From Claveliimonas bilis (GTDB lineage: Bacteria; Bacillota; Clostridia; Lachnospirales; Lachnospiraceae), in assembly GCF_030296775.1 (NCBI RefSeq), contig NZ_AP027742.1, positions 186,001 through 250,000 of the forward strand: a DNA stretch of 64,000 nt, written 5' to 3'. Numbering within the stretch: the first letter of the stretch is position 1; every line of letters starts with the position of its first letter. Positions 51,566 to 62,090 of the stretch are shown in pieces. The notes under the pieces were generated by a model. It was given only the letters and a program-made list of their open reading frames with translations, was not told the DNA's origin and did not search any database. A program made the translations under genes and the position numbers.

Positions 51566-51594
51566 AGGGCTGCCCGGTGGGGGCAGCCCTTTTT
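51566..51594. terminator. Terminator of the importer operon
   Basis: AGGGCTGCCC pairs with GGGCAGCCCT, followed by Ts. Its end coincides with the stop codon of the convergent bioY. Confidence 0.9.
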
Positions 51595-52192
51595 AAGAAA
51601 TTCCTGCATTTACTCGTTTCCAGAGCTCCGGACCGAGAATGACAGTCAGAATAATTTTTACAGAATCTCCTGCCAGATACGGAATGACGCCAATAGCTAA
51701 CGCGGCAGTAAAAGACAGCTCCATTTGAAATGAGAGCCAGTATGTACCGAATAAATAAAGGACAGCGGTTCCGGCGATCAGACCGATAGCATGAAAGATA
51801 CGGTTTTGCGGAAAATGATCTATGATAAGTCCGCCGATTATAGTAAGGAAGATAAAACCGATCAGGTATCCTCCGGTGGGACCGGCAAATTTGGCAAATC
51901 CTCCGGAAAAGCCGGAAAATACAGGAAGTCCGGCAAGCCCCAGAAGAAGGTAGATAATGTAACTTAAAGTAGCCTTCTTCCATCCTAGAAGATAGATACT
52001 GAATCCGATGACAAGATTTGTCAGCGTGATCGGTACAGGGCTGAAAGGAATGGGAATAGAAAGCGGTGCCAGAATACAGGTCACAGCTGTTATTAAAGCA
52101 GTCAGTACCATAGAACGCGTGGAAAGGCGAATGCTGCCTGGAGATGCTGTCTGTGAAGGGTGTTGTGGTAAGTCATCTGGTTTTTGAAACAT
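51593..52192 (-). CDS. bioY: Biotin transporter BioY
   Basis: The 199-residue membrane protein has about six helices and the BioY features PIPFSPVPITLTNL and GFSGGFAKFAGPTGGYLIGF. It is the substrate-binding subunit of an ECF-type biotin importer. AGGAGG precedes the ATG at 52192; the longer frame upstream covers the promoter and is not used. A BirA-type operator overlaps its promoter, so it should be switched off when biotin is plentiful. Confidence 0.93.
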   Translation of the reverse strand: MFQKPDDLPQHPSQTASPGSIRLSTRSMVLTALITAVTCILAPLSIPIPFSPVPITLTNLVIGFSIYLLGWKKATLSYIIYLLLGLAGLPVFSGFSGGFAKFAGPTGGYLIGFIFLTIIGGLIIDHFPQNRIFHAIGLIAGTAVLYLFGTYWLSFQMELSFTAALAIGVIPYLAGDSVKIILTVILGPELWKRVNAGIS

Positions 52193-52376: not shown

Positions 52377-52405
52377 TTGACAAATAAAAGGGGTGGTGCT
52401 ATTAT
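52377..52405 (+). promoter_or_regulatory. Promoter of the candidate large RNA
   Basis: TTGACA (52377–52382), a 17-base spacer and TATTAT (52400–52405). No protein gene starts within the next 900 bases. Confidence 0.7.
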
Positions 52406-52411
52406 AAAGTC

Positions 52412-53174
52412 AATCCAAAAGAAATCCAATAAACCAGATAAAAGTTATATATTAAATTTAATAAAATTTATTTCTGACGAGAAAGGAAATAAATAAAAAG
52501 TAATAAGTATAATATATAAATAATATCTGAAAAGGATTTCAAAATATATTTCATATGTTGGTGAGATATATAGAGCGGAAATAAAACGGAAGGAGGCTTA
52601 ATCCATTGGACAATTCAGAATTTCATAATCAGTATATCGGTGGTAAGGCAAATGAAGGTTCCCATAGAATAAGCCTTAATTATAGAGAAGCCGGTAAAAG
52701 TTTATAAAGGAAAAATCGGAGAGTATAATCACCGGTGTAAAGAGATTAAAATTTGCAGATATACTGAATAAATACCACGTAGATCAAAGATATTAGAGGA
52801 TGCGTGAAGAAGTATCGGACTAATATATCAGATTTATATCAGGGAGCTATATAAAATATATGTTATAGAAGGAATAGCTTAATAGCGTTACAGATTATAT
52901 AGTTATAATAAGGGATGAAGAGCTGTAACGGGAACGGTTATAGATATTATAATAACTCGGAAAATATTTTATATAGAGAATATGAGGGCGATATAAATAT
53001 ATGATTCAGGAATAAGAAATCCAGACTTTGAGAAAAAATCGAATAAAAGGAAAAAGGCAAGGGAACGCAATTAATCGAAAAATATCCTCCGAGATATAAT
53101 TTAAAATATGATAAAATTTAATAGAAAGCAGCCACTGTAAAAAAGTTTCAAGTATTTACGGTGGCTGCTTTTTT
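52412..53174 (+). ncRNA. Candidate ~760-nt structured non-coding RNA
   Basis: No long frame is open, yet the stretch has a promoter at one end and a strong terminator at the other. Helices seen by eye: 5'/3' closing helix 52450–52459 with 53114–53123 (10 bp); hairpin 52466–52474/52486–52494 (9 bp); hairpin 52544–52553/52562–52571 (10 bp, one GU); 52594–52600/52670–52676; TCAGTATATC 52629–52638 with GATATACTGA 52758–52767 (10 bp, long range); 52886–52893/52923–52930 enclosing a smaller hairpin; and 52956–52961/53088–53093. The size and ends-paired form resemble large ornate RNAs such as ROOL, GOLLD or OLE. Which class, if any, is unknown. Confidence 0.6.
53125..53174 (+). terminator. Strong terminator at the end of the RNA candidate
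   Basis: AGCAGCCACTGTAAA (53127–53141) pairs with TTTACGGTGGCTGCT (53155–53169) with one GU pair, then six Ts. Confidence 0.92.
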
Positions 53175-53258: not shown

Positions 53259-53287
53259 TTGACATTGACTATCCTATATGCTACACT
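53259..53287 (+). promoter_or_regulatory. Promoter of the TPR–acidic–AAA-like gene
   Basis: TTGACA (53259–53264), 17-base spacer, TACACT (53282–53287). Confidence 0.7.
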
Positions 53288-53335
53288 AAAAGAGTTAAAA
53301 TATATACAAAAGTAAACATTATTGAGGTGAGAATA

Positions 53336-56300
53336 TTGGATAAATATGAATATCGGGTTAAAACAGAGCAAATGCTCGAATACATGGAAAAGAGGCAGTA
53401 TAAAAAAGCCATGGAGATTGCTGACACGATCGACTGGCGAAGAGTAAAAAATGCTTCAATGCTTAATAATGTCAGCGAGATATACGAATACAACGGGGAG
53501 TACCAGAAGAGCAGAGACATTTTATTTGTCGCTTATGACCGCTCTCCTGGCAGTAGAAAGATCGTATATCGTCTGGGAATCTTGGCATTAAAGATCAATG
53601 ATATTGAAGAAGCTTCCGATTGTTATGAGGAATTTGTAAAGCTGGCTCCGAAGGATCCGAACCAGTATATATTAAAATATAAAATTTTGAAAGCACGGCG
53701 TGCGCCTGTGTCAGAGCAGATTGCTGCACTGGAGGACTTCAAAAAGGCAGAGTATGTGGAAAAGTGGGCTTATGAGCTGGCGAAGCTTTATGATGAGGCA
53801 GGTATGACAGCAGAATGTCTGGAAGAATGCGACGACCTGATTCTGTGGTTCAGCGAAGGAAAATACGTTTACCAGGCGATGGAACTGAAGATGAAATATA
53901 AGCCGCTGACACCGTTGCAGCAGGAGAAATACAATAGTATGGGCGGCCAGAAAACCGGCAGAAGAGAAATGGTAAGAGCGTCGGCAGAAGAGGATGTGAA
54001 GCCTCAGGAAGCGGAAGAGGAAATGCAGGATGAACTGGAAGAAGCGGAGGATTCCCTGGAACAGGAGGATATTCCGGAGGTAAAAGAGTCAGGCACTCTT
54101 TCAGAGGAGGAAGCTGCTACCAGGGAGATTCGTCTTGATGAACTTAGAGCGGCACAGGAAAAAGCTAAAGAGGAAATGGCAGCCAAGCCTAAGGAAAAAT
54201 CATCTATCCGCCAGACTGTAAAGGGAGCAACGCTCTCCGAGGCGCTGGCGAATGGCGTGCGTGTTGCAAAAGGACTGGATATAGAGGAAAAGGCCAGCAC
54301 AAAGCAGGATGAGGCGATGCGTATCACGGGTCAGATGAAGATAGAGGAAATTCTGGCAGAGTGGGAAGCAAAGCAAAAAGGCAATGCGGAGGCTATTGAA
54401 GAGCAGAGAAAGAAAGATGAAGAAAAACTGGCGCAGAGACGGCTGGAGGCACAGCGCCGCCGTGAAGAGGAAGCCAGAAGAATAGAAGAACAGCAGCGTG
54501 CAGCGGAAGAAGCCAGAAAAATTGCAGAGCAGAAAGCGGCGGAGGAGGCAAGGAGACTTGCGGAGCAAAAAGCCGAAGAGGAGCGCATTCTTGCAAAACA
54601 AAAGGCGGATGAAGAGAAGAGACTTGCGAAGCTGAAAGAAGAGGAAGAAGAAGCCCTTCTGGATCGGATCGCATCCGGAAAAGCAACGGAAGAATTTAAA
54701 GAAGCAGTAAGAAATGCAGTTGAACCGGAAGAAGAACCAGAAGAAGTAATCGAAGAAATGATCGAGGAGGAACCGGACGAGCCTGTGGAAGAAGTGGTTG
54801 AAGAAATCACTGAAGAGGAGATCGCAGAGGAAGAAGACGAACCGGAAGAGCCTGCAGAAGAAGTAATGGAAGAATCCGCTGCAGAGGAAATATTTGAGGA
54901 AGCGGACGAGCCGGAAGAAATGCTGAATGCAGAAGTGCAGGACGAAGAAGAAATTCCTGAAGAGAGTCAGGATATGAGCATGACAGCGGATCTTAGACAG
55001 CTGATGGCTGAATTGGAAGCAGAAGATCAGCCGGAGGATAAGGGCATGAATCTGGGAGGTCTTTCCATAGAAGAGCCTGCTGACGAAGAAGTTTCTGATT
55101 ATATCGGCGAAGAAGAGTCATATGATGAGGCGGACTATGATGAAGTAGATTACGACGAGTCAGGCTTTGAAGAGGATGATGGATTCGAAGGCGATGATGA
55201 CTTCGAAGATGAGGATGATTTCGAAGACGAATATGAAGATGAGTATGTCGAAGACGATTACGAGGATGAATACGAGGACGATTATGCCGACGAATACGAA
55301 GATGAATATGAGGATAATGACCTTGAAGATGATATGGATGACGACAGCTTCGATGAAGATGACTACAGCGACTATGATGATATAGAAGATGACGATTATG
55401 ATGATGACTTCTATGATGACGAGGAAGAGGAGACGAAACCGAAGAAGAAACAGCAGGAAGAGCTGGTGATCGAAGAGCCTACGGAAGAGGAGATCCAGAA
55501 GCGTATTAAGAAAGGCAAAGGCGGCGTTCCATTTGATACAGGATTTGTAGTGACAGGGCGTTATGATTTGAGCGCTACAAGTGAGATCGGTCTGAAGGCG
55601 GGACTTACAGAGGAGCAGAAACAGCTGTTTTCTTACTTTGTTCCGGTGCGTGGTATGAGTGAACAGATAGTAGAAGTTCTGGATAATGACCGCCGGGAGA
55701 GAAGAAACGGAACGTCGAAAGTTGGAAATATCCTTGTTATCGGACACAAAGGATCCGGTAAAACTGTTCTTGCGGTTGATATTGTCAAAGCAATTCAGAA
55801 ACAGCGTAACCTTAAACAGGGAAAAGTTGCCATTGTAACAGGAGAAGCCTTAAATAAAAAGGATATCCCTAATATCATTCAGAAGCTGAAAGGCGGAGCA
55901 ATTATCATTGAGAAGGCCGGAAAGCTGAATGCCAGAACGGTCCGTGATCTGAACATTCTGATGGAAAAGAAGACAGGAGAGCTTCTGTTTGTGCTGGAGG
56001 ATCAGAGAAAAGCGTTAGAACGGCTCTTCACTGCCAATCCGGAGTTTAAGAAGAAATTAACTTCTAAACTGGAGCTTCCGGTATTTGTTAATGATGAGCT
56101 TGTAACTTTTGGACAGACCTATGCTAAGGAAAACGGGTATAAGCTGGATGAGATGGGTATATTGGCACTGTACAGCAGAATTGATGTGATGCAGAGAGAA
56201 GATCATGCCGTGACGGTAGCTGAAGTAAAAGAGATTATGGATGCAGCGATTGAACATTCCCAGAAAGCGAATGTAAAGCATCTGGCAAGACGTATGTTCC

Positions 56301-56359
56301 GCAAGGGAACAGACGAATCAGACCGCATTATTTTGAAGGAAGACGACTTCAAAATCTAG
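53336..56359 (+). CDS. Giant TPR / acidic-repeat / P-loop ATPase protein
   Basis: TTG 53336, seven bases after GAGGTG, is the likely start (GTG 53327 is an alternative). The 1007-residue protein has TPR-like helices (about 1–200), a charged Ala/Glu/Arg coiled coil (about 330–440), a very acidic Glu then Asp/Tyr-rich stretch (about 450–700), and a C-terminal ATPase-like domain with P-loop GHKGSGKT near 803–810. The C-terminus somewhat resembles SpoVK/CbbX-type AAA modules. Function unknown; perhaps a scaffold that moves or remodels partners. It follows the candidate RNA directly. Confidence 0.78.
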   Translation: MDKYEYRVKTEQMLEYMEKRQYKKAMEIADTIDWRRVKNASMLNNVSEIYEYNGEYQKSRDILFVAYDRSPGSRKIVYRLGILALKINDIEEASDCYEEFVKLAPKDPNQYILKYKILKARRAPVSEQIAALEDFKKAEYVEKWAYELAKLYDEAGMTAECLEECDDLILWFSEGKYVYQAMELKMKYKPLTPLQQEKYNSMGGQKTGRREMVRASAEEDVKPQEAEEEMQDELEEAEDSLEQEDIPEVKESGTLSEEEAATREIRLDELRAAQEKAKEEMAAKPKEKSSIRQTVKGATLSEALANGVRVAKGLDIEEKASTKQDEAMRITGQMKIEEILAEWEAKQKGNAEAIEEQRKKDEEKLAQRRLEAQRRREEEARRIEEQQRAAEEARKIAEQKAAEEARRLAEQKAEEERILAKQKADEEKRLAKLKEEEEEALLDRIASGKATEEFKEAVRNAVEPEEEPEEVIEEMIEEEPDEPVEEVVEEITEEEIAEEEDEPEEPAEEVMEESAAEEIFEEADEPEEMLNAEVQDEEEIPEESQDMSMTADLRQLMAELEAEDQPEDKGMNLGGLSIEEPADEEVSDYIGEEESYDEADYDEVDYDESGFEEDDGFEGDDDFEDEDDFEDEYEDEYVEDDYEDEYEDDYADEYEDEYEDNDLEDDMDDDSFDEDDYSDYDDIEDDDYDDDFYDDEEEETKPKKKQQEELVIEEPTEEEIQKRIKKGKGGVPFDTGFVVTGRYDLSATSEIGLKAGLTEEQKQLFSYFVPVRGMSEQIVEVLDNDRRERRNGTSKVGNILVIGHKGSGKTVLAVDIVKAIQKQRNLKQGKVAIVTGEALNKKDIPNIIQKLKGGAIIIEKAGKLNARTVRDLNILMEKKTGELLFVLEDQRKALERLFTANPEFKKKLTSKLELPVFVNDELVTFGQTYAKENGYKLDEMGILALYSRIDVMQREDHAVTVAEVKEIMDAAIEHSQKANVKHLARRMFRKGTDESDRIILKEDDFKI

Positions 56360-62017: not shown

Positions 62018-62090
62018 GCGCGATTAGCTCAGCTGGCAGAGCACCTGACTCTTAATCAGGGTGTCCAGGGTTCGAACCCCTGATCGCGCA
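62018..62090 (+). tRNA. tRNA-Lys (anticodon CTT)
   Basis: Acceptor GCGCGAT/ATCGCGC with discriminator A, D-arm TTAGCTCAGCTGGCAGAGC, anticodon stem CCTGA/TCAGG around CTCTTAA with anticodon CTT, and T-arm CAGGGTTCGAACCCCTG. CCA is not encoded. It reads AAG lysine codons. Confidence 0.95.

Follow-up and report, generated by a model that had tools for sequence, protein, structure and literature searches.

What occupies the roughly 1.1 kb of AT-rich DNA that separates the divergent gene bioY from a long plus-strand gene in Claveliimonas bilis? The stretch analyzed here, referred to as the window, comprises 64,000 nucleotides, and the initial annotation had proposed that about 760 of the bases between these two genes are bounded by a promoter and a terminator. 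Both signals lie where it had placed them, enclosing 763 nt. The locus is organized as follows (positions are those of the window).

51593-52192, minus strand: bioY, transcribed divergently (Pfam BioY, 139.9 bits)
52377-52405, plus strand: near-consensus promoter TTGACA-17-TATTAT, from the sequence and a promoter scan
52412-53174, plus strand: predicted transcript of ~763 nt, delimited by the promoter and the terminator
53126-53174, plus strand: intrinsic terminator, a hairpin with a T-run, from the sequence
53327-56359, plus strand: TPR-ATPase-like gene of 1010 aa, from its open reading frame

The terminator hairpin folds into 19 pairs with a 13-nt loop; a terminator scan that allowed loops of 3 to 8 bases, versus the 13 nt present here, gave 0 sites. 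The G+C content of the region is ~25-30%. Its plus strand has a folding energy of -161 kcal/mol, versus a mean of -121 kcal/mol for 20 shuffled sequences (z -6.3), and the minus strand gives a z of -3.9 (20 shuffles). Judged by its promoter and terminator signals, the region looks like one self-contained gene that specifies a large structured RNA.

The name given to the downstream gene is a loose label, because the sole Pfam match of its product, NB-ARC, and the NCBIfam matches, CbbX and SpoVK, all fall below curated cut-offs; the weak likeness to the CbbX/SpoVK ATPases concerns the C-terminal part of the protein. This protein is widespread, its N-terminal part being present in 366/397 Lachnospiraceae genomes, and it has no family name in Pfam and NCBIfam. 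Its gene is preceded by a promoter of its own, TTGACA-17-TACACT (53259-53287), and by a GAGGTGAG ribosome site, both within 53259-53331 of the window; across the four full-length copies from sister species, this promoter stretch seems to vary little.

The initial annotation had likened the region to ROOL, GOLLD and OLE. The likeness in kind, that of a large structured RNA gene, stands; membership does not, as the Rfam search it had proposed placed the region in none of these or any other Rfam 15 family. Rfam 15 contains ROOL, GOLLD, OLE, HEARO and raiA. At gathering scores, the only match in the whole window was a tRNA at 62018. At E<=10 the region gave 14 matches, all below gathering scores and mostly to the terminator hairpin, none of them to ROOL, GOLLD, OLE, HEARO or raiA. 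The homologous loci described below behaved likewise: 20 of them, scanned at gathering scores, yielded only a T-box leader, in L072 and away from the RNA, and eight divergent ones, scanned at E<=0.1, yielded one microRNA-family match, in L163 and away from the core. We found no description of the RNA family in the open-access literature (subscription papers, preprints and supplements were outside the scope of this search), nor is the RNA described in the passages seen of PMC11109978, PMC8632094, PMC6429828 and PMC12286853. On the strength of the Rfam scans and of the comparative evidence below, this is almost certainly a real family of large structured RNAs that is not listed in Rfam 15.

Other known RNAs were considered and rejected. 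The genome's one 6S match lies elsewhere (G000:C1:1052606-1052788, 54.4 bits), as does its only above-cut-off tmRNA match (G000:C1:2758020-2758371, 163.9 bits), and the region itself gave no tmRNA match. As regards a CsrB-like sponge of CsrA, GGA was at most 1 sd above shuffles in 7/7 sequences (18 occurrences versus 16.2 for the window), and AAGGA was 1.8-1.9 sd above shuffles in 2/7. A search for CsrA itself (PF02599, E<=0.001) gave no match in the own genome, and the control search was positive in 3/14 genomes.

Homologs were collected in several rounds. By blastn, the element was present in 6/10 other genomes of the genus, namely a nearly identical genome of the same species and five other species with 73-78% identity; in one of these five (G002) the match spans only ~190 bases. 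A first blastn search of relatives matched 30/61 genomes at E<=0.01, with short stretches outside the genus. One of the latter, in G014, turned out to be the RNA, and the remaining ones were taken as chance matches of AT-rich DNA. We then fetched 80 named loci via the N-terminus of the downstream protein and searched them with an iterated profile, which found a conserved core in 62/80. Fourteen of the 18 coreless loci were rescanned with the covariance model R1 (best E 0.35); of the other four, L048, L055, L057 and L060, three have no more than ~110 bases of DNA in front of the gene, and the stretch fetched for L057 covers just a part of the RNA toward its 3' end.

Two covariance models were built, R1 from 46 cores and R2 from 100, and the elements of the core are the following.

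52589-52780, plus strand: conserved core (G000:C1:238589-238780), found in its own genome by R1 with E 3.4e-33 and by R2 with E 1.0e-32
52629-52638, plus strand: P2, 5' strand, pairing with 52758-52767
52640-52645, plus strand: PB, 5' strand, pairing with 52773-52778 and forming a pseudoknot with P2
52691-52695, plus strand: P3 hairpin, 5' strand, pairing with 52731-52735
52731-52735, plus strand: P3 hairpin, 3' strand, pairing with 52691-52695
52758-52767, plus strand: P2, 3' strand, pairing with 52629-52638
52773-52778, plus strand: PB, 3' strand, pairing with 52640-52645

R1 found the core in 70/397 Lachnospiraceae genomes and R2 found the RNA in 88/397, a lower bound, since the second model raised the count. 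Among 246 order-level genomes R1 matched three, all of them Lachnospiraceae, and among 291 class-level genomes R2 matched only the own genome; these two samples contain some Lachnospiraceae members and gave no match outside that family. The absences carry little weight because the genome searches scored few candidates per genome under strict filters. Restriction of the RNA to Lachnospiraceae is thus what has been seen so far and is not proven. The genera that bear the core include the gut genera Dorea, Coprococcus, Mediterraneibacter and Faecalicatena. Eighty-six of the 88 genomes have one match and two have two each, G116 (C7, C12) and G147 (C177, C109); the second match of G147 sits at a contig edge.

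At E<=1e-3, blastn gave no match in 50,697 phage and 72,556 plasmid records. An exact scan of viral_contigs with a 21-base pattern returned one contig, IMGVR_UViG_2585427817_000006 (L106). The stretch fetched from it starts inside the RNA gene, and an integrase gene (Pfam Phage_integrase, 29.8 bits) lies directly behind the 3' end of the RNA (L106:1-650 and 715-1860). From the position of this integrase gene, a prophage may use the 3' end of the RNA gene as its attachment site.

Comparative counts refer, unless stated otherwise, to a set of 100 loci. It omits L001-L006, L008 and L021-L025, the cores of which are identical to loci in the set; L007 and L009-L020, which are short blastn matches; L106; and L148 and L150, which are the same as L081 and L069. 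Also left out were L107-L137, 16 of which have cores identical over 110 bases to members of the set and 15 of which differ. Of the 51 rows of an alignment designated A4, 47 were considered, the four matches with E of 0.35-0.95 being left out.

The signals that delimit the predicted RNA recur across the loci. The same promoter criterion was satisfied upstream of the core in 95/97 loci with enough upstream DNA, compared with 21-35 of 97 in ten shuffle controls, and a terminator-like hairpin with a T-run follows the 3' element of the RNA in 72/78 loci. The predicted RNAs have a median length of 630 nt (range 359-911, 69 loci).

The initial annotation had drawn a 10-bp long-range helix, 52629-52638 with 52758-52767; this is P2, which is present and covaries across species. 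Since PB crosses P2, the core is a pseudoknot. In the 100 aligned cores, 98.7% of P2, 93.7% of PB and 92.1% of P3 cells are paired, which for the three helices together amounts to 95.5% of 2039 cells in alignment A5, versus 25-44% in controls with slid partners. The fitting of A5 took P2 and P3 into account but not PB, which is also absent from the structure of the covariance models. Double-sided changes were present at 19/21 pairs of P2, PB and P3, in 155 cells versus 38 in shuffles, and 0/500 shuffles scored as high. Double-compensatory events were then counted on a tree of 74 sequences and compared with 300 simulations: P2 underwent 17 (null maximum 4), P3 22 (null maximum 5) and PB 5 (null maximum 3). 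In all five helices tested, these three and the long-range helices LR1 and LR2 treated below, such events exceeded the maximum of the simulations. In P2, P3 and LR2, pair-breaking events were fewer than in any simulation, which is not so for PB (23 versus a null minimum of 20). A blind all-pairs covariation test on the 74 sequences returned one pair with E<0.05 (in P3, E 0.025) and one P2 pair with E 0.167; we judge this test to have little power at conserved columns.

The core structure was confirmed out of sample with 18 divergent copies found by R2 and lying outside its training set. In these, 90.8% of 304 cells of P2, PB and P3 are paired (PB 88.4%, P3 80.4%), versus 30-43% in slid-partner controls, with double changes at 15/21 pairs. 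In some copies much of a strand has been replaced along with its partner, as with CAGUGUAAG/CUUACACUG in L182 and GUGACAG/CUGUCAC in L191; a few of the weakest copies, L189, L192, L194 and L196, show no ordinary PB. The compensatory changes support a pseudoknotted core of P2 and PB with the hairpin P3. A further helix, P1, in which the Shine-Dalgarno region would pair with AAGCCTT, was tried and rejected: beyond two G-C pairs, it holds in 68/89, 79/96, 54/93 and 46/98.

The core is tied back to the 3' end of the RNA by long-range helices, strongly supported in the case of LR2 and less so in that of LR1.

52657-52663, plus strand: LR1, 5' strand, GGTTCCC, pairing with GGGAAC at 53061-53066
52671-52677, plus strand: tentative LR0, 5' strand, AAGCCTT, possibly pairing with AAGGC at 53054-53058
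52716-52721, plus strand: LR2, 5' strand, TCGGAG, in the loop of P3, pairing with CTCCGA at 53087-53092
53054-53058, plus strand: tentative LR0, 3' strand, AAGGC, possibly pairing with 52671-52677
53061-53066, plus strand: LR1, 3' strand, GGGAAC, pairing with 52657-52663
53087-53092, plus strand: LR2, 3' strand, CTCCGA, pairing with 52716-52721

For these tests a sequence profile, and not pairing, was used to align the 3' element; its seeds were stretches around a CCTCCG-like motif. Omission of L158 and L146 left 76 sequences, and removal of near-duplicates left the 74 with an aligned 3' element that the LR1 and LR2 tests cover. LR2 shows 10 double-compensatory events (null maximum 3), its two strands changing together in AUCGAAG/CUUCGAU, ACCGGAG/CUCCGGU, UUUGGAG/CUCCAAA, ACCGAAG/CUUCGGU and AUCAGAG/CUCUGAU. 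Its inner five pairs hold in 73/73 sequences and the outer two in 69/73 and 65/73; L036, L038, L046 and L069 each have one position that does not pair. LR1 is the weakest of the five helices, with 5 double-compensatory events (null maximum 4) and 41 pair-breaking events, which is not below the null minimum of 40. Six of its pairs hold in 57-61 of 59-61 sequences and the outer two only in 36/56 and 37/50; one position is C-G in 34 sequences and T-A in 22. As a third long-range helix LR0 is weakly supported, with a score of 14.09 for own partners and, for 400 swapped ones, a mean of 13.13 (sd 0.34) and a maximum of 14.09 (50 sequences). In a search of 56 divergent loci for a 3' motif, the pattern CTTTC...AGGG matched in 8.

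A different link between the ends, a helix of 52450-52459 with 53114-53123 that the initial annotation had drawn as closing them, did not hold up. It is not conserved, its 5' strand being gapped in the four full-length copies from sister species, and a comparison of own with swapped partners gave no signal in the only 4 usable sequences.

Outside the core, the RNA contains three hairpins.

52466-52494, plus strand: 5' hairpin with a covarying stem and the conserved loop GACGAGAAA at 52476-52484
52544-52571, plus strand: second 5' hairpin, lineage specific, its strict motif being found in 8/100 loci
52799-52816, plus strand: mid hairpin, a variant of the hairpin with a GUAAAGAAA loop

The first two had been proposed initially. 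That at 52466-52494 is present, and its stem covaries across species; that at 52544-52571 is present in the window, its strict motif being confined to the 8 loci just mentioned. The GACGAGAAA loop lies upstream of the core in 43/100 loci, and its own stems pair at 5.38 of 6 positions, versus a mean of 3.23 and a maximum of 3.95 in 1000 swaps (39 distinct flanks). The GUAAAGAAA motif lies downstream of the core in 65/100 loci, a motif that the window's own variant does not match; its stems pair at 4.29 of 6 positions, versus a mean of 3.22 and a maximum of 3.57 in 1000 swaps (56 distinct flanks). Both tests used whichever of nine pairing offsets scored best on the own sequences. A conserved loop on a covarying stem is, we infer, what a docking site for a protein or another RNA would be expected to look like. 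In L188 and L193 the CCUGACGAGAA hairpin motif, usually upstream, lies within ~110 nt downstream of the core, as if a domain had been permuted. The proposal that the helices be checked for covariation in homologs thus yielded compensatory changes in P2 and in the 52466-52494 hairpin; these speak against the caution that helices in such AT-rich DNA may be due to chance.

The absence of a long open frame had also been noted, which is correct, except that a conserved frame of 33 aa following a ribosome-binding sequence had been overlooked.

52590-52596, plus strand: Shine-Dalgarno sequence AAGGAGG, from the sequence
52606-52707, plus strand: start codon TTG and frame of 33 codons, crossing the 5' strands of P2, PB, LR1 and the tentative LR0

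The Shine-Dalgarno sequence, which is 9 nt from the start triplet in the window, is largely conserved in the alignments, with exceptions that include L154, L159 and L174. A start triplet is present in 99/100 loci (ATG 42, TTG 51, GTG 6, CTG 0; one locus is without) and the 18 further divergent copies have ATG in 5, TTG in 7, GTG in 4 and CTG in 2. The triplet is located inside a possible tiny hairpin, CC-NNU-GG, the C-G pairs of which are found in 100/100 and 96/100 loci, so that its conservation may be partly structural. The distance from the start to P2 is a multiple of three in 88/90 measurable loci. Frame 0 has no stop for 24 codons in 62/62 loci of the main clade, which are not 62 independent events because these sequences share ancestry, whereas each of the other two frames has stops in 57/62 and dinucleotide shuffles predict a stop in 50.9 of 62. 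On the tree, 4 of 389 substitutions created a stop versus 13.4 expected (P 0.003, L069 left out). Among the remaining 37 loci, a stop occurs within 14 codons in 6; for the other frames the corresponding figures are 22 and 32. Translation would end after 2-4 codons in 13/117 copies (6/99 loci and 7/18 of the more divergent ones).

The peptide itself appears to drift. Over 135 close pairs of sequences, which are not independent, changes were distributed over the codon positions as 400/392/375, and there was no synonymous bias in the same pairs (fraction 0.225 versus 0.247 and 0.283 in the other frames). Because the frame is open in 62/62 main-clade loci without such a bias, selection seems to act on ribosome entry or transit rather than on the peptide.

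The whole is best explained, in our view with about an even chance of being correct, by an autonomous gene for an RNA that would act in trans and have its fold gated by ribosomes. The RNA would be made from its own promoter to its own terminator, the core folding with P2 and PB crossing, and would act probably as a ribonucleoprotein or together with ribosomes. A ribosome would initiate at the Shine-Dalgarno sequence and start codon at the entrance of the core and could translate 14-35 codons in most copies, passing the 5' strands of P2, PB and LR1. Its passage would open the P2/PB pseudoknot and LR1, and without ribosomes the core would remain closed. The fold would thereby report or respond to ribosome availability. 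The gating itself, with transcription, translation, switching and the partner all inferred, is a reading to which we give somewhat less than an even chance. More tentative still is the proposal that the RNA represents a new class, free-standing, multiply pseudoknotted and operated by ribosomes, which it would recruit to open or occupy its own knot and not for the sake of a peptide.

The main rival, which we regard as rather unlikely, is a noncoding scaffold or RNA-only assembly like OLE or ROOL, in which the start-like triplet would be a structural mini-hairpin and never be translated. The size of the RNA, its pseudoknots, the 3' end tied into the core, the nearly invariant CC/GG around the triplet and the closing of the frame after 2-4 codons in 13/117 copies all fit such a scaffold. 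Against it, none of the triplets in 99 loci starts with C, their first base always being A, T or G; a Shine-Dalgarno sequence lies 9 nt upstream of the triplet in the window; and stops are much rarer in this frame than in either alternative one. These same features of start and frame, along with the recurring residues QY[VE]SG, could point instead to a dual-function RNA whose product is a peptide of 15-35 aa. S. aureus RNAIII is such a dual-function RNA with a peptide product. We consider this quite improbable here: synonymous bias is lacking, the recurring residues fall where the P2 and PB strands lie, and the peptide shrinks to 2-4 residues in the 13 copies just mentioned. An antisense regulator acting in trans, with the pyrimidine-rich strands GUUCCC and CCUCCGA pairing to the Shine-Dalgarno regions of mRNAs, has in its favor that the motifs CCUCC and UUCC[CU] recur, but both are accounted for by LR1 and LR2, in which they change together with their partners, making this reading improbable.

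Control in cis can be weighed by the gene context. In 59/62 core-bearing loci the RNA lies <=1.2 kb upstream of the TPR-ATPase-like gene, as would a leader or attenuator of that gene; this count is biased, the loci having been fetched through the gene. In the 38 loci found with the RNA model, the fetched stretch shows the gene downstream in 10 and not in 28, some of these stretches ending at contig ends, and other genes follow instead. The neighborhood differs between loci; L147, for example, has genes for a pseudouridine synthase, for an aconitase-like protein and for a periplasmic binding protein around the RNA. Such varied neighbors make the RNA unlikely to be the leader of one gene. A terminator (72/78 loci) and the separate conserved promoter at 53259-53287 intervene, and the gene occurs in 366/397 genomes of the family as compared with 88 for the RNA; we regard a leader function as very unlikely. 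Finally, a chance structure or a decayed protein gene might be suspected at a G+C content of only ~25-30%. This reading is refuted by compensatory changes over 100 copies and the out-of-sample confirmation in 18 more, and we grant it next to no probability.

If the RNA does represent a new ribosome-operated class, it would be a translation sensor or a ribosome-docking RNA, different in kind from tmRNA, 6S RNA, OLE and the nanocage RNAs. It occurs in common gut genera, and its anatomy makes a specific prediction, the entry of ribosomes into a pseudoknot. It also offers a comparative example of an open frame that is kept while the peptide drifts. The discovery of a large, complex bacterial RNA family has often opened the way to new biochemistry.

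Among known systems, the short frame embedded in a pseudoknot-rich RNA is reminiscent of tmRNA, which has the same arrangement; the RNA described here differs by having its own Shine-Dalgarno sequence and start codon, and the genome's tmRNA is encoded elsewhere. The odc1 motif is a structured motif that carries a uORF, and motifs of this kind lie in front of a gene over which they are believed to exert control in cis, according to the part of PMC8632094 seen. Both have a conserved RNA structure, a short frame and a ribosome-binding site; here, in contrast, the structured region is followed by a terminator and another promoter, and its neighboring genes differ from locus to locus. ROOL is highly complex, with multiple pseudoknots, GOLLD is bound by ribosomes in pull-downs, and both have their genes in phages or prophages, frequently close to tRNA islands, as reported in the part of PMC12286853 seen. 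Like them, the window RNA is large and has pseudoknots. Unlike them, it is chromosomal and has no blastn match in the phage and plasmid records, and as for tRNA islands, the sole Rfam-detected tRNA in the window is ~9 kb from it. OLE RNA, of about 600 nt, is found in Bacillota. The RNA resembles it in size and structural complexity and differs in lacking an Rfam OLE match and in carrying an embedded Shine-Dalgarno sequence, start codon and frame. The ribosomal protein bS21 reportedly belongs to the OLE complex (PMC12054373, seen in part). By analogy, the RNA may in its mode of action be most like the large structured RNAs that touch the ribosome, OLE and GOLLD.
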